Assembly (NCBI GenBank): GCA_017437755.1
Contig: JAFRXI010000012.1
Coordinates: 1-33,418 of the forward strand
Length of the DNA: 33,418 nt
Source of the DNA: Bacteroidales bacterium
Lineage (GTDB): Bacteria > Bacteroidota > Bacteroidia > Bacteroidales > UBA932
Direction: 5' to 3'
Numbering within the stretch: the first letter of the stretch is position 1; each line of letters opens with the position of its first letter. A program made the position numbers and the translations under genes. The notes under the pieces were generated by a model, which saw only the letters and a program-made list of their open reading frames with translations, made no database searches and was not told where the DNA came from. This document shows, piece by piece, positions 24,409-31,250 of this stretch.

Positions 24409-26325
24409 ATGCCACACAGTCTTTTGGAACTGAACGCCATGAGCGAAGAACAGCTCAGGTCGTTAGCAGAAAAACTCAAAATCAAGAATTTCAAAAAATT
24501 GGATATACTCAACCTTGGATTTGCAATCCTGGACGAGGAAGCGCGCCTGGAGTCGATAAAGCCGGAACCGGCAGCTCCCAAGAAAAGGGGCCGTCCCAAA
24601 AAGGCCGCAGCCGAGCCTGCCAGGAATGACGGTGCCGCCGCACCCAAGGAGGCTGCTCCGGCCAAGGAGGCAGAGGCCCCCAAGGCCTCCGAGAACCCCA
24701 AGGCTGCACCGGCCGAGGCGAAACCCGCCGCCAAGGCAGCCAAGAGCCGCAAGGCAAAGAGCGCTCCTTCAGCCGACAAGCCCCAGGTAAAGGCCGAGGC
24801 AAAACCGGAATCCAAGCCGGAGCCGGCGGCCGAACCCAAGCCTGAAGCAAAGCCCGAGGAGGCCGCCAAGCCTGCCGATGCCGCTGCTCCCAAGAAACGC
24901 GGCCGCAAGCCCAAGGCTGCAGCACAGGCCGCCCCTGCCCAGCAGGACAAGCCGGCTGAAGCAAAAACCGAGGCAAAGCCCGAAGAAAAGACGGAGCCAA
25001 AGACCGATTCAAAGGCTTTCATCCATCAGATTTTCAACGAGTTGAACTCCGATGAGGTGCAGAAGGCAGAGCAGGCGGAAGAGAGGCTTCAGCGTCAGCA
25101 GATGAAGCGTCAGAAATTCCAGCAGCAGAACGGCCAGAACGGTCAGAACGGTCAGAACGGCGGTCAGCCCAAGAAACCTCAGATTGAGTTTGAAGGAACC
25201 GTTGAGGCTACGGGAGTGCTTGAGATAATGCCGGACGGATACGGATTCCTCCGTTCATCGGATTACAACTACCTGAATTCCCCGGACGACATTTACGTCT
25301 CCCAGAACCAGATCAAGTTCAACGCCCTGAAGAACGGCGATACCGTTACCGGTGAGATCCGTCCTCCCAAGGAAGGTGACAAGTATTTCCCCCTGGTAAA
25401 GATCAATTACGTCAACGGCAGGACTCCCGAGTTCGTGAGGGACAGGGTTCCGTTCGATTTCCTCACTCCCCTGTTCCCCACTGAGAAATTCAACCTTCTG
25501 GGCCATGGCCATGAGAAGGATCTCTCTTGCCGGATAGTGGATATGTTCACGCCCATCGGAAAGGGCCAGAGGGGCCTTATCGTGGCTCAGCCCAAGACCG
25601 GTAAGACAATGCTGCTCAAGGCTATAGCCAACGCCATAGCCGACAATCACCCGGAGGTTTACGAGATTGTACTGCTTATCGACGAACGTCCTGAAGAGGT
25701 TACCGACATGAGCCGGAGCGTAAAGGCCGAGGTGGTTGCATCCACCTTTGACGAACCGGCGGAAAGACATGTCAAGGTGGCCAACATGGTGCTTGAAAAG
25801 GCCCGTCGCCTCGTGGAGTGCGGACATGACGTGGTGATCCTGCTCGATTCCATAACCCGCCTGGCACGTGCGTACAACACCGTCCAGCCGGCATCCGGAA
25901 AGGTCCTTACCGGCGGCGTGGACGCCAACGCCCTGCAGAAGCCCAAGCGCTTCTTCGGCGCAGCCAGGAACATAGAGAACGGCGGTTCCCTGACCATACT
26001 TGCAACGGCCCTTACCGAGACCGGGTCAAAGATGGACGACGTCATCTTCGAGGAATTCAAGGGAACCGGCAACATGGAACTCCAGCTGGACAGGAACCTT
26101 TCCAACAAGAGGATATTCCCGTCTGTAAACCTCACGCTGTCAAGTACAAGGCGCGACGACCTGCTCTACGACCCCTATACCCTGAACAGGATCTGGATCC
26201 TTCGGAAACTGCTGTCAGACATGAACCCCGTGGAGGCCATGAACTGGATGCAGCAGCATATGGACGAGTTCAGGACCAACCGGGAGCTCATAGACAACAT
26301 GTCCAAACTGAGCAGGTTCGATTAG
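24409..26325 (+). CDS. rho: Transcription termination factor Rho with large disordered insert
   Basis: 638 residues, over 200 longer than the E. coli protein. A Rho_N helical region (about 1-48) is followed by a disordered Ala/Lys/Pro/Glu-rich insert to about 260, including AT-hook-like KKRGRPKK and KKRGRKPK and the tandem QNG repeat (240-251). The cold-shock-like primary RNA site (about 265-340; [13 protein letters not shown]) and the ATPase domain follow, with Walker A PKTGKT (395-400), [22 protein letters not shown] and the Q-loop [20 protein letters not shown]. Rho is a hexameric RNA helicase that terminates transcription. Such inserts are known in Bacteroides Rho, where they are reported to drive phase separation. 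Its stop overlaps the carB stop by 4 bp. Confidence 0.97.
25126..25161 (+). repeat. Four tandem 9-bp repeats in rho (QNG x4)
   Basis: CAGAACGGY occurs four times head to tail in frame, encoding QNG at residues 240-251 at the end of the disordered insert. Each unit keeps the frame, so copy number changes would alter only linker length. Confidence 0.85.
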
Positions 26326-29300
26326 TATTCGTCCCAGGCCTTTATGGACAGGTCCTCTAGGTTCTGGGAAGTGAAGGCCTGGATGAAGGCGGTAGCGAGC
26401 CTTGCATTGGTGAAGAGCGGTACATTGGAATCGATGGCCGCTCTTTTTATAAGGTAGCAGTCGTCGTTCTGGGTCTCGGAAAAGTCCTTGTTGATATTGA
26501 CCACCATATCCACTTCCTGGTTCCTGATGAGGTCCAGGGCGTGCCTGAAATGCTTCAGGTTGGGATTGTCCGTCTCGCTGGGCCAGAGGACCTTTGTGGT
26601 GGGGATGCTGTTCTCCACCAGGTAACGGTGGGTTCCCGAAGTAGCGTACAGGGTGTAGCCGTTTTCCGACAGCATCCGGCAGGCACGGAGCATGTCGGCT
26701 TTCTGCAGGGGGTCTCCGGTGGAAAGCAGGATACCCTTTGTGGGAATACCGTTGCCTACGGAGAGGACGGATTTTATGAGACCCTCGTCGAAATTGTCGC
26801 CCAGGCATCCCACTTCACCGGTGGAGGCCATGTCCACTCCGAGCACGGGATCGGCTTCCTCGAGCCTGGCAAAACTGAACTGGGACGACTTGATTCCCAC
26901 GTAGTCGAGGTCGAAGGCGCTCTTCAGCGGAGCCGAGGGATGAAGCGAAAGCATGACCTTTGATGCCAGCTCTATGAAGTTGATTTTCAGGACCTTAGAT
27001 ACGAAGGGGAAACTTCTGGAAGCCCTCAGGTTGCACTCGATAACCTTGATATAGCCGGGGCCAACCAGGAACTGGATGTTGAAAGGACCGGAAATCTCCA
27101 GGGCAAGGGCTATCTTCCTGGCTATCTTCTTGATACGGCGGACGGTCTCTACATAAAGCTTCTGGGGCGGGAACTGGATGGTGGCGTCGCCTGAGTGGAC
27201 TCCGGCGTATTCTATGTGCTCTGAAATAGCGTATGCGAGGATCTCGCCTTCGTCGGCTACGGCGTCGAACTCGATTTCCTTGCACCTGGACAGGAACTGG
27301 CTTACCACGACAGGATGCTCCTTGGAGACGTCTGCAGCCAGCGAGAGGCATTTACGGAGCTCCCTTTCGTCGTGGCAGACGTTCATGGCAGCACCGGACA
27401 GTACGTATGACGGCCTCACAAGTACCGGAAAACCAACCCTTTCCACAAATGCGTCGATGTCTTCTACGGTTGTTACTTCCTTCCATGCCGGCTGGTCCAC
27501 ATGGATGGCATCCATTATGGACGAGAATTTGTGACGGTCCTCGGCACGGTCGATATTCTCGGCCTTTGTGCCCAGGATGGGAACGCCGGCCTTGTCGAGC
27601 CTGAGTGCCAGGTTGTTGGGGATCTGTCCGCCCACGCTTACGACGACTCCGTGGGGCGATTCCATCTGGCAGATATCCATCACCCTCTCGAATGTAAGTT
27701 CGTCAAAGTAGAGGCGGTCGCATATGTCGTAGTCGGTTGAGACGGTTTCGGGGTTGTAGTTAATCATGATACCGCGGTATCCCTGCTGGCGGATTGTCTT
27801 CAGGCAGGTTACCGAGCACCAGTCGAATTCCACGGAGCTTCCAATCCTGTAGGCACCGGAACCAAGGACTATAATCGACTTGCCGTCATTCTCGTACGAT
27901 ACATCATTGAAAGTGCCGTTATAGGTAAGGTAGAGGTAGTTTGTGGCGGCCGGGAACTCAGCGGCAAGGGTGTCGATCTGCTTGACGACAGGTACGATGC
28001 CGTGTGCGATCCTCCAGGCACGGACCTCCATCATACGGTCGGCCCAGTTACCTTTATCCTTCCACAGGCAGCGCTGGATCTGGAAATCGGAGAAGCCCCT
28101 CTGCTTGGCCGTCCGCATGAGTTCTTCCGGCATATCTTCAAGGGAACTGCAGGCCGAAAGCTCATCCTGGGTGTGGACGATGTTCATGAGCTTGTCCAGG
28201 AACCACCTGTCGATCTTAGTGAGGGCGTGGATCCTGTCGACGGTATAGCCTTGCCTGAAGGCCTCTGCGATTACGAAGATCCGCTTGTCGGTGGGCTCGG
28301 ACAGTTCCTTGTCCAAGTTATTGACAGTGAGTTCCTTGTTGCCCACGAAGCCATGGGCTCCCTGGCCGAGCATACGGATCCCTTTCTGTATGGCTTCCTC
28401 GAAGCTGCGGCCTATGGCCATGACCTCCCCCACCGATTTCATGCTGGAACCGATCTTCCTGGAAACTCCGTGGAACTTGGAAAGGTCCCAGCGCGGAATC
28501 TTGCATACGATGTAGTCCAGGGCAGGTTCAAAGAAGGCGGGAGTGGTCTTTGTGACGGAATTCTTGAGGTCGAACAGGCCGTAACCCAGGCCGAGTTTCG
28601 CTGCTACGAAAGCGAGCGGGTACCCGGTGGCCTTGGACGCCAGGGCCGAGGACCGGCTGAGCCGGGCGTTCACCTCTATGACGCGGTAATCCATGGCGTC
28701 GGGGTCATAGGCGTACTGGACGTTGCACTCGCCCACAATCCCGAGGTGCCGGACGATCTTTATGGATAGTTCCCTCAGGAAATAGTAGTCCCGGTTGGAA
28801 AGCGTCTGCGACGGAGCCACCACGATGCTCTCTCCGGTATGGATGCCCAGAGGGTCGAAGTTCTCCATGTTGCAGACGGTGATGCAGTTGTCGTATTTGT
28901 CCCTAACTACTTCATATTCAATCTCTTTCCATCCTTTCAGGGATTTTTCCACGAGCACCTGCGGCGAAAATGAGAAAGCCTTGTTGCAGATTTCGGTGAG
29001 CTGCCCGGGGTTATCGCAGAAGCCGGACCCCAGGCCGCCGAGTGCGTAGGCGGCACGGACTATCACCGGATAGCCCAGCGTCCCGGCTGCCACGGTAGCT
29101 TCCTCGAGGGTTTTTGCGGGAACGGAACGGATGGTCTTGACCTCTATCTGGTCCAGCTTGCGGACGAACAGGTCCCGGTCTTCCGTGTCCATGATGGCAC
29201 TTACCGGGGTGCCGAGGACCTTGACTCCATACTTTTCCAGCATCCCGTTAGAGTACAGGGCGACACCGCAGTTGAGGGCTGTCTGCCCGCCGAAAGACAG

Positions 29301-29558
29301 GAGGATACCGTCGGGCCTTTCCTTCTCTATCACCTTCTCCACGAAGAACGGGGTGACCGGGAGGAAATAAACCCGGTCGGCAACGTCCTCTGAAGTCTGG
29401 ACGGTGGCGATGTTGGGGTTTATGAGTATGGTCTGGATTCCCTCTTCACGCAGGGCTTTCAATGCCTGGGAGCCAGAGTAATCAAATTCCCCGGCCTGGC
29501 CTATCTTCAATGCTCCAGAACCAAGTAGGAGCACTTTTTTTATGTTGGGATCTAGCAT
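26322..29558 (-). CDS. carB: Carbamoyl-phosphate synthase, large subunit
   Basis: 1078 residues, normal for CarB. Two homologous ATP-grasp halves are visible: the first begins [20 protein letters not shown] and carries [13 protein letters not shown] and [20 protein letters not shown]; the second begins [19 protein letters not shown] and carries [12 protein letters not shown] and [15 protein letters not shown]-terminal MGS-like allosteric domain starts near 930 (GILLSTGD to the end). The enzyme makes carbamoyl phosphate from glutamine-derived ammonia, bicarbonate and 2 ATP for pyrimidine and arginine synthesis. The wording ([43 protein letters not shown]) is closer to eukaryotic CPS than to E. 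coli CarB. It follows carA by 15 bp and is probably controlled by the attenuator upstream of carA. Confidence 0.96.
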
Positions 29559-29573
29559 GATGAGAGAAGTTGT

Positions 29574-30650
29574 CTAAAGTTTTCCTATAAATTCGTCGAA
29601 AAGGAATTCAGTGTCGGTTGGCCCGCTGGAGGCCTCGGGATGGAACTGCACCGAGAAGAACGGTTTTGACTTGTGGCGGATGCCTTCGTTGGTCCCGTCA
29701 TTCATGTTTATGAACCATGGTTCCCAGTCCTCTCCCAGGGTGGAATTGTCCACTGCGAATCCGTGGTTCTGGGAAGTGATGAAGCATTTGTTTGTGCCCG
29801 CCATCCTTACAGGCTGGTTGTGGCTGCGGTGGCCGTATTTCAGTTTGTATGTCCTTGCCCCTCCCGCACTTGCCAGCAGCTGGTTGCCCATGCATATCCC
29901 GAAGATGGGGCGGTCGTCCTTCATTGCGGTCCTTAGATGGGCTATCGTAGCCATGCTGAAAGCCGGATTTCCGGGGCCGTTTGAGATGAACAGACCGTCG
30001 TAGTCAAGGGTGTTGTAATCGTAGTCCCAAGGGACCCTGACAAGTTCTATTCCCCTGTCTACGAAGCACCTTAGAATGTTGTGCTTGACCCCGCAGTCGA
30101 CCAGGACCACCCTCTTGCTGCCGCTCCCGTACCTGATAATGTCCCTGCAGCTTACAATGGAAATCTGGTTTTCCAGGTTGGGGTCCTTGACGGGGAAATC
30201 CCGTTGCACGCCGTCTGGCACGATGATGCCCAGCATGGATCCGTTCTCCCTGAGGACCTTGGTAAGTTCCCTGGTGTCGATTCCGGAAATCCCCGGAACC
30301 TTCTGTTCCTGAAGCCATTGTCCAAGGCTCTTGACAGCGTCCCAGTGGCTGTAGTTGAATGAGTACTCCGATATCACCAGTCCCCTGACCCAGATCCTCT
30401 CGGACTCGAAATTAAGGGATATCCCATTCTTGTCCACCTCTTCGGACGGTACACCGTAATTTCCTATCAAAGGATAAGTTACGCACAGTATCTGGCCGGA
30501 ATATGATGGGTCGGTAAGGCTTTCGGGGTATCCCACCATGGCAGTGGAGAACACTACTTCACCGTCGGTCGGGCCTTCATAGCCGAAGGAATACCCGCGG
30601 AATTCCATTCCGTTTTCCAGTTTCAGGGTTGCGCCAAGTCGTCGTTCCAT
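29574..30650 (-). CDS. carA: Carbamoyl-phosphate synthase, small (glutaminase) subunit
   Basis: 358 residues. The N-terminal CPSase domain (about 1-150; DGEVVFSTAMVGYPESLTDP, SGIDTRELTKVLR) is followed by a class I glutamine amidotransferase domain with GICMGNQ (nucleophile C253) and QFHPEASSGP (H337, E339), so the full triad is present. It supplies ammonia to CarB. The ATG at 30650 is preceded by a leader of about 150 nt that contains a small reading frame and an intrinsic terminator ending about 20 bp before this ATG. It is transcribed together with carB. Confidence 0.96.
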   Translation of the reverse strand: MERRLGATLKLENGMEFRGYSFGYEGPTDGEVVFSTAMVGYPESLTDPSYSGQILCVTYPLIGNYGVPSEEVDKNGISLNFESERIWVRGLVISEYSFNYSHWDAVKSLGQWLQEQKVPGISGIDTRELTKVLRENGSMLGIIVPDGVQRDFPVKDPNLENQISIVSCRDIIRYGSGSKRVVLVDCGVKHNILRCFVDRGIELVRVPWDYDYNTLDYDGLFISNGPGNPAFSMATIAHLRTAMKDDRPIFGICMGNQLLASAGGARTYKLKYGHRSHNQPVRMAGTNKCFITSQNHGFAVDNSTLGEDWEPWFINMNDGTNEGIRHKSKPFFSVQFHPEASSGPTDTEFLFDEFIGKL

Positions 30651-30670
30651 ATTCTTAGAAACAGCTTCTT

Positions 30671-30704
30671 AAAAAAACCGGCCCTCCGTATAAATAGAAG
30701 GCCG
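30671..30704 (-). terminator. Intrinsic terminator (attenuator) in the carAB leader
   Basis: On the minus strand a 9-bp stem (CGGCCTTCT, 30704-30696, with GGAGGGCCG, 30687-30679; two G-T pairs, 8-base loop) is followed by G then seven T (30677-30671). It lies between the carA promoter and the carA ATG, so transcription must read through it to reach carAB. A competing CTCCG (30742-30738) upstream could pair with CGGAG (30688-30684) in the descending arm and open the stem. Confidence 0.75.
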
Positions 30705-30797
30705 TCAAAAACAAACAGGGAAAACCGGGGCAGTGACCGGAGTCTGACCGGAAAGTACCGTGTTGACGGGAAGTTTTGATACCCTTGTTTTACCCAT
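30705..30797 (-). CDS. Putative 30-residue leader peptide of carAB
   Basis: An ATG at 30797 opens a frame of 30 codons, MGKTRVSKLPVNTVLSGQ then TPVTAPVFPVCF, whose TGA ends at 30705, the base directly before the terminator stem. It begins within about 10 nt of the predicted transcription start, so initiation would be leaderless or nearly so. The last part of the frame is T-rich (13 T in the 20 bases GTTTTCCCTGTTTGTTTTTG). It has one Arg and is not enriched for a regulatory amino acid, which argues for nucleotide sensing rather than amino-acid sensing. Translation is not shown by sequence alone. Confidence 0.45.
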   Translation of the reverse strand: MGKTRVSKLPVNTVLSGQTPVTAPVFPVCF

Positions 30798-30804
30798 ATG
30801 GATG

Positions 30805-30835
30805 CAAATTTAGAAGATGTTTTGAATTCTTCCAA
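30805..30835 (-). promoter_or_regulatory. Promoter of carAB
   Basis: The minus strand has -33 TTG (30835-30833), a 20-bp spacer and -7 TAAATTTG (30812-30805). Transcription would start near 30799-30803, leaving a leader of about 150 nt before carA. The region lies inside the false upstream extension of yccF. Confidence 0.6.
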
Positions 30836-30853: not shown

Positions 30854-30861
30854 TATATTTG
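30854..30861 (+). promoter_or_regulatory. -7 promoter element for yccF-GNAT-mnmE
   Basis: TATATTTG is a full -7 consensus, 20 bp ahead of the yccF ATG at 30882. No clean -33 TTTG is found at the right distance; the region is shared with the -33 of carAB. Confidence 0.55.
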
Positions 30862-30881: not shown

Positions 30882-31250
30882 ATGAAATTACTAGGTAACT
30901 TGCTCTGGCTTGTATTAGGGGGCCTTCTGGTAGCCCTGATATACTATTTTATAGGGCTTCTGCTGTGTATCCTCATCATCGGGATTCCTTTTGGGATACA
31001 GCTTTTCAAACTCGGAACATATGCTTTGTGGCCCTTCGGCCATGAACTCGTGAACGGTCCCGGTCAGCCCGGCTGCCTGTCTGTGCTGATGAACCTGATC
31101 TGGGTACTGTTAGGATGGTGGGAGATTGCCCTGGTGCACCTTGTCTGCGGACTGCTCTTCTGCGTTACCATAGTAGGTATTCCGTGGGGACTGCAGCATT
31201 TCAAGATGGCGGTTTCGTCTGTCTTCCCCTTCGGCAAGGAAATAGTTTAA
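30882..31250 (+). CDS. YccF domain-containing membrane protein
   Basis: 122 residues from the ATG at 30882. The frame is open from 30798, but the -7 element lies at 30854-30861, inside that extension, and the conserved protein begins MKLLGNLLWLVLGG. Two tandem YccF-type units are visible: IPFGIQLFKLGTYALWPFG (about 34-52) and IPWGLQHFKMAVSSVFPFG (about 99-117), each after hydrophobic stretches. YccF proteins are small inner-membrane proteins of unknown function. The gene is followed after 10 bp by the acetyltransferase gene. Confidence 0.88.
   Translation: MKLLGNLLWLVLGGLLVALIYYFIGLLLCILIIGIPFGIQLFKLGTYALWPFGHELVNGPGQPGCLSVLMNLIWVLLGWWEIALVHLVCGLLFCVTIVGIPWGLQHFKMAVSSVFPFGKEIV

Follow-up and report, generated by a model that had tools for sequence, protein, structure and literature searches.

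Introduction

To our knowledge, the sensing of UTP by a pausing RNA polymerase and a trailing ribosome is known only from enterobacteria. Leader terminators also precede pyrimidine genes in Bacillus, where the pyr attenuators are PyrR-dependent, and in trp-type attenuators it is the position of the ribosome on a leader ORF that decides termination. The closest described system to the one considered here is the pyrBI operon of E. coli, the leader of which (pyrL) is made up of a promoter, a short leader ORF, a 6-bp hairpin, a 10-nt spacer, a T-rich tract, and an intrinsic terminator that is reached by the ORF. Coupling of transcription and translation across pyrL is reported to prevent the terminator (PMC5021804). 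A pyrL pause has been mapped in vitro, and at this pause no effect of NusA and no rescue by compensatory changes are reported (PMC9291695). A second control of pyrBI is exerted by reiterative transcription at the T run of the transcription start (PMC6245113). The carAB operon of E. coli is described in the same source as being controlled by regulator proteins and by UTP-dependent reiterative transcription, with attenuation not involved at promoter P2 (PMC6245113).

In Bacteroidota, short ORFs in long 5' UTRs have been called reminiscent of leader peptides (PMC7366714), and clues for leader-peptide attenuation before amino-acid operons have been reported from Flavobacterium (PMC9723704). No carAB attenuator in Bacteroidota was found among the matches listed in full-text searches of mostly open literature, and the main text of PMC10994844 has neither "attenuat" nor "carA". 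The subject of this work is the leader of carAB in a stretch of 33,418 nucleotides of a Bacteroidales bacterium (the window; contig JAFRXI010000012.1 of assembly GCA_017437755.1), from a genome of 2.88 Mb in 76 contigs that is 84.87% complete.

Organization of the carAB leader

The features of the leader and of the neighboring genes are collected in Table 1. The initial annotation had described a 30-codon ORF, a T-rich tract, a 9-bp terminator with seven T, and carA 20 bp further on, and all of these lie on the minus strand where it had placed them. The stop codon of the ORF abuts the stem, the first stem base being the next base after TGA, and the carA ATG at 30650 is 20 bp past the last T of the terminator. 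In the predicted fold of the leader, the outer six pairs of the terminator have a mean pairing probability of 0.986. A 3' terminator of an upstream gene was considered for this hairpin and set aside: the upstream yccF-type gene is divergent, thus the hairpin has no upstream gene to end and could serve carA only.

Table 1. Coordinates of the leader elements and neighboring genes in the window.
Feature	Position	Strand	Basis or remark
carB, carbamoyl-phosphate synthase large subunit	26322..29558	(-)	TIGR01369, 1515 bits, cut-off 1027
carA, carbamoyl-phosphate synthase small subunit (putatively regulated gene)	29574..30650	(-)	TIGR01368, 442 bits, cut-off 307
Intrinsic terminator: 9-bp stem-loop 30704..30679, then G, then seven T (30677..30671)	30671..30704	(-)	
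Leader ORF, 30 codons, MGKTRVSKLPVNTVLSGQTPVTAPVFPVCF	30705..30797	(-)	ORF reading; ATG 30797 to TGA 30705
T-rich tract, best 20-mer with 13 T; proposed UTP-sensitive pause region	30707..30726	(-)	
P1, candidate pause hairpin CCGG-TCAGACT-CCGG	30737..30751	(-)	12 nt 5' of the T-rich tract
-7 promoter box of carAB, TAAATTTG	30805..30812	(-)	Bacteroidota consensus TAnnTTTG
-7-like box of the divergent yccF-type gene (its own)	30854..30861	(+)	
yccF-type gene, divergent from carA	30882..31250	(+)	family search

The canonical promoter of the initial annotation held as a promoter and had to be corrected in type, since an E. coli sigma-70 scan found none and the box is of the Bacteroidota kind. The Bacteroidota -7 consensus TAnnTTTG is placed at -12 to -5 (PMC7366714, PMC9723704). 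On this placement, transcription of carAB would start near 30800 with a 5' UTR of about 3 nt, and the leader ORF is likely to be nearly leaderless. Only about 3.7% of 5' UTRs are reported to be shorter than 10 nt in B. thetaiotaomicron (PMC7366714); across the 20 clusters of related leaders described below, the gap between box and ATG ranges from 7 to 30 nt (median 20.5), and the window is the shortest case. The T run that serves the second control of pyrBI is absent at the transcription start as placed from the box, where CATCCATATGGG follows the -7 box.

The order of promoter, leader ORF, T-rich tract, and terminator is that of pyrL, as would be the spacing of about 10 nt between the candidate hairpin and the T-rich tract, and the pathway is likewise that for pyrimidines. 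The differences are the following: the operon that would be controlled is carAB and not pyrBI, the phylum and the promoter type are other ones, and the pyrL frame as annotated crosses its terminator and ends 3 nt before pyrB, while that of the window already stops at the base of the stem. For the leader of the window taken singly, 18% of dinucleotide shuffles likewise have a frame that leads from the first ATG up to the stem, the whole-leader fold is not unusually stable (z -1.37), and P1 is weak, with p 0.087 in a position-specific test with a distance window chosen post hoc.

Sample of related carA leaders

Upstream regions of carA were gathered from the genus with which the window's genome groups (Candidatus Cryptobacteroides and kin) and from the family. 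The 188 loci comprise 40 picked rows and, from each search, the carA matches that scored best; the sample is therefore not random, and distant carA copies in the genus are under-read. Removal of identical or short (<60 nt) upstream regions left 118 distinct ones, at least 13 of which come from other genera of the family. A terminator-like hairpin lies within 200 nt of carA in 64 of the 118, and 58 of these hairpins have a promoter match upstream. The six hits without a promoter match (L006, L055, L107, L125, L130, and L178) were left out, though L107 and L125 still carry the terminator. Three more were removed by judgement as doubtful, two with a covering frame (L024 and L108) and one without (L041), leaving 55 curated leaders that fall into 20 clusters at 70% leader identity.

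By eye, L107 and L125, both from Cryptobacteroides, look like collapsed leaders in which a promoter is followed almost directly by the same terminator. A 7-codon frame seems to end in the terminator loop of L107, and in L125 a frame that begins at the stem seems to continue into carA without a change of phase.

Conservation of the stop-to-stem register

Repression of a terminator by a stop codon at a distance of up to 27 nt has been reported from an E. coli test system (PMC4824070), and this limit (stop end at -27 or later relative to the stem) was taken over from the literature. Every one of the 55 curated leaders has an ATG frame that stops within it, be it shortly before, inside, or beyond the terminator. 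Counted by cluster, this is 20 of 20 against 9.8 expected from dinucleotide shuffles (P 7e-8; this and all other cluster P values assume independence, and as the clusters share ancestry they are too small by an unknown amount). With tighter limits, all set after the positions had been seen, the excess is larger: the stop ends within -12..+3 in 15 of 20 clusters (2.4 expected, P 8.5e-12), the frame of the first ATG reaches the stem (stop end at -12 or later) in 16 of 20 (5.8 expected, P 1e-6), and some ATG frame does so in all 20 (7.9 expected, P 6e-10). The stop ends 21-22 nt into the hairpin in three further clusters and beyond the terminator in two.

What is conserved is the geometry. Leader sequences are less than 70% identical between clusters, yet the register of ORF and terminator is kept. 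All 20 clusters have standard pairs at the first five positions of the terminator stem, and each of these positions shows two to four types of pair; that the pairs are standard is partly by construction, as stems were found by pairing. The leader peptide differs between clusters. In three clusters, pN/pS of the leader codons is 0.67 (12 of 15 members, leaving out L062 as well as L018 and L109, in which the frame runs on), 0.60 (10 of 10 members), and 0.20 (4 of 4 members, few changes), next to 0.69 to 0.97 and once 4.5 in other frames, so the peptide is at most weakly conserved. The conservation in close relatives that the initial annotation had proposed as a check of its reading was therefore found for the frame, the terminator, and their register, although not for the peptide.

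The terminator has a pairing probability above 0.8 in the full leader in 52 of the 55, and in these, with the terminator dominant, no competing antiterminator fold is predicted. The leaders thus show no antiterminator of their own, and whatever keeps the terminator from forming must come from elsewhere, the ribosome being the simplest candidate.

As a control for the specificity of the arrangement, a 400-kb part of contig C2 from relative G016 was used, which amounts to roughly a sixth of that genome and has 300 ORFs of at least 100 codons taken as genes. It holds 44 terminators outside same-strand genes, six of which stand before a gene and away from the end of an upstream same-strand gene. 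Only one of these six leader-type terminators has both a promoter match and a frame to the stem, and it is that of carA.

The same contig contains, near 45734, a leader (L261) that reads ATG ATA TAT AGC AAC TCA TAT TGG TGG TGG and is followed by a terminator, which is another of the six; its three Trp codons in a row are as in trp-type leader peptides, and the gene after it, recognized from sequence, is presumably trpB. At L261, no Rfam family beyond tmRNA and tRNA scored over threshold. A trp-type leader before a trpB-like gene makes ribosome-coupled attenuation plausible in this genus, and it lends some weight to the idea that the carA leaders work in the trp manner, with an amino acid such as arginine as the signal, as carbamoyl phosphate also feeds arginine synthesis. 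Several Arg codons are indeed present in some leaders outside the genus (L243 and L249). Against this stand the composition of the leader peptides in the 20 clusters, in which Arg makes up 2.4% of 468 residues and no conserved run of one amino acid was seen, and the dominance of the terminator over any alternative hairpin; on both points the carA leaders are unlike trp-type attenuators. We regard amino-acid attenuation of carAB as very unlikely.

A leader controlled by a protein or a ligand, of the PyrR or riboswitch type and with an incidental ORF, seems equally improbable, even though control of pyr operons by PyrR-dependent attenuation is widespread among Gram-positive bacteria. The PyrR model NF003549, for which B. 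subtilis was among the controls that matched, has no match in the window's genome (itself 84.87% complete) and is over its cut-off in none of 21 genomes, the window's included, with weak matches in 10 of the 21; no known Rfam leader or riboswitch matches the window at gathering score. In contrast to the Bacillus attenuators, moreover, the carA leader reads as an ORF, and an ORF that keeps its register to the terminator while leaders diverge below 70% identity is hardly incidental.

The T-rich tract and the candidate hairpin before it

The T-rich stretch noted in the window is also common to its relatives, above all to the 13 clusters whose leaders are at least 90 nt long. Between -22 and -8 relative to the stem, T makes up 0.54 of the bases in these 13 clusters and 0.46 in the full set of 20; the value for comparison, from 27 ordinary 3'-end terminators of a relative, is 0.34 (Mann-Whitney P 0.0004 for the 13 clusters and 0.014 for the 20). 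A T-rich tract was found in 13 of the 14 clusters looked at (of 20). L004, which represents a long-leader cluster, fails the definition of the tract, and other members of its cluster pass. The short-leader clusters L009, L019, L022, L026, and L122 are low in T at the same positions (0.13 to 0.33).

A small hairpin before the T-rich tract had been overlooked in the initial annotation; pyrL of E. coli has one too. For P1-like hairpins ending 5-13 nt before the first T run, a distance window set post hoc, the summed energy over the 13 clusters is -56.6, compared with -15.2 (sd 6.8) in shuffled sequences (z -6.1, 0 of 300 shuffles as low). Tested one by one, 5 of the 13 clusters are at or below p 0.05, and the outcome is clearly negative for L031 and L085. 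A whole-segment fold test of the same 13 clusters gave no significant result (mean z -0.36). In a re-test on 14 leaders hand-picked from 35 non-representative ones, six had p<=0.05, four had p between 0.05 and 0.1, and four (L011, L018, L095, and L149) were clearly negative. These results make P1 no more than a suggestive candidate for a pause hairpin.

The weight of the T-rich tract bears on how the leader would be read out. It is conceivable that the leader is ribosome-coupled without sensing UTP and reports on translation in general, e.g. on growth rate or ribosome supply, the T tract being incidental or an aid to termination. The geometry of stop and stem is present in every curated leader and the T tract in only part of them, and many leaders of other families are, by eye, A-rich and not T-rich, as would be expected if UTP were not the signal. 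We nevertheless consider this rather unlikely, on three grounds: T before the stem exceeds that of ordinary terminators in the long-leader clusters; the spacing of hairpin, about 10 nt, and T tract tends to recur and matches that of E. coli pyrL; and among the 300 genes sampled in G016, carA alone is preceded by the arrangement.

The initial annotation had proposed a pyrBI-type attenuator. Its coupling to the ribosome is well supported by the comparison of registers, whereas its UTP step keeps the standing of a reading by analogy; because several short-leader clusters and, by eye, many leaders of other families have a weak T tract or none, ribosome coupling is the better supported of the two.

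Distribution of the leader element

A tree of 107 carA proteins, 54 with the element and 53 without it, calls for at least 12 gains or losses, compared with 35.8 in shuffles (L107 and L125 were counted as attenuated, and close relatives make some clustering expected). Judging from this tree, the leader element is inherited along clades, with repeated loss or gain. That 53 of the 107 sampled genes do without the element is what a constitutive partial terminator, or a chance arrangement without any regulation, might lead one to expect. The statistics of the register and the clustering on the carA tree speak against both, and we hold the absence of regulation to be the least probable of the alternatives weighed here.

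Outside the genus, 25 terminators were found in 157 distinct carA upstream regions (13 of them also among the 118). Twelve have a promoter match and a frame to the stem (L194, L202, L224, L236, L243, L249, L328, L339, L365, L367, L376, and L386); they represent two further genera of the family as well as four further families of Bacteroidales, and their terminator sequences differ. In six of the twelve (L194, L202, L328, L339, L367, and L386) the end of the stop is again 1 to 6 nt ahead of the stem, in L202 with the frame of the second ATG, as the first frame runs through. In L236, L365, and L376, all of one other family, a long frame passes through the terminator into the carA start, much like pyrL, which runs to 3 nt before pyrB. 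In L235 the frame begins at the stem, and a covering frame is lacking at L245, L248, L340, L350, and L362, 5 of the 18 terminators for which a promoter was matched. The remaining 7 terminators lack a promoter match; several of them follow long open frames and look like the ends of upstream genes.

The frames of L236, L365, and L376 have 76 to 99 codons from the first ATG and share a KILLSxKHxGFEQ-like stretch and a CCTGCC..GGCAGG terminator. Their peptide looks more conserved than the leader peptides of Cryptobacteroides.

A different element was observed before carA of other Bacteroidales families. There, ACGATAGAA (or TACGATAGA), often within GGTTTTCACGATAGAAACC or similar, lies near the 5' end of the transcript. 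It begins 50-66 nt upstream of the carA ATG, and its exact complement immediately precedes this start codon. The element is present in 11 of the 157 distinct regions (L215, L217, L219, L222, L314, L315, L316, L318, L320, L326, and L335); in the L335 variant the 5' arm differs by one base, which would give a G-U pair. By its sequence, this element might act as a switch, with a hairpin at the 5' end as one state and a sequestered carA start as the other.

No terminator was found within 200 nt upstream of pyrB in the 30 loci of the genus that were scanned (from 61 genomes searched). In the window's genome, pyrB (L189, on contig C76 of G000) lies directly 3' of a 206-codon gene, which we take to be YigZ-like, and is without a leader terminator; the gene after it is presumably serC-like.

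Proposed mechanism

Our best reading of the carAB leader, which we consider fairly likely, is that of a translation-coupled attenuator which, probably, senses UTP by polymerase pausing as in pyrBI. It stands on four observations on sequences, namely the arrangement of the leader, the conserved register, the scarcity of such leaders in the portion of a related genome that was sampled, and fold predictions that show no competing antiterminator. Taken by themselves, the two parts of this reading differ in strength: that the leader is a ribosome-coupled attenuator is very likely, and that UTP is what it senses, as the T-rich tract suggests by analogy with pyrL, is more likely than not.

The leader may operate by the following steps. 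RNA polymerase would start near 30800, and a ribosome would begin to translate the leader ORF without delay. With an ample supply of pyrimidine nucleotides, the polymerase would outrun the ribosome through the T-rich tract; the terminator would then fold and end transcription ahead of carA. With UTP (perhaps also CTP) in short supply, the polymerase would slow down in the T-rich tract, probably aided by P1. The ribosome could then catch up and, because the leader ORF stops at the base of the stem, cover the 5' arm of the stem and block the terminator, and carAB would be transcribed. We infer for this scheme a working terminator, a ribosome that keeps up with the polymerase, and UTP as the signal.

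Implications

A wider proposal, to which we give tentative and somewhat less than even credence, is that ribosome-coupled, UTP-sensing carAB attenuators evolved repeatedly in Bacteroidales, independently of the enterobacterial pyrBI system and with the same three-part geometry, namely a pause hairpin, a T-rich tract about 10 nt later, and a terminator met by the stop of the leader ORF. Most Bacteroidota genes start without Shine-Dalgarno sequences; if the proposal is true, repeated carAB attenuators would imply close coupling of transcription and translation in this phylum. If a dominant gut phylum has its own version at carAB, the same solution would also have arisen more than once. Since the peptide varies widely and the stop-to-stem register is kept, such elements should be easy to find in other genomes and easy to dissect. 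Bacteroidota would also gain a testable reporter for transcription-translation coupling. Finally, control by pyrimidines would act in these bacteria at carbamoyl-phosphate synthase and not at aspartate transcarbamylase.
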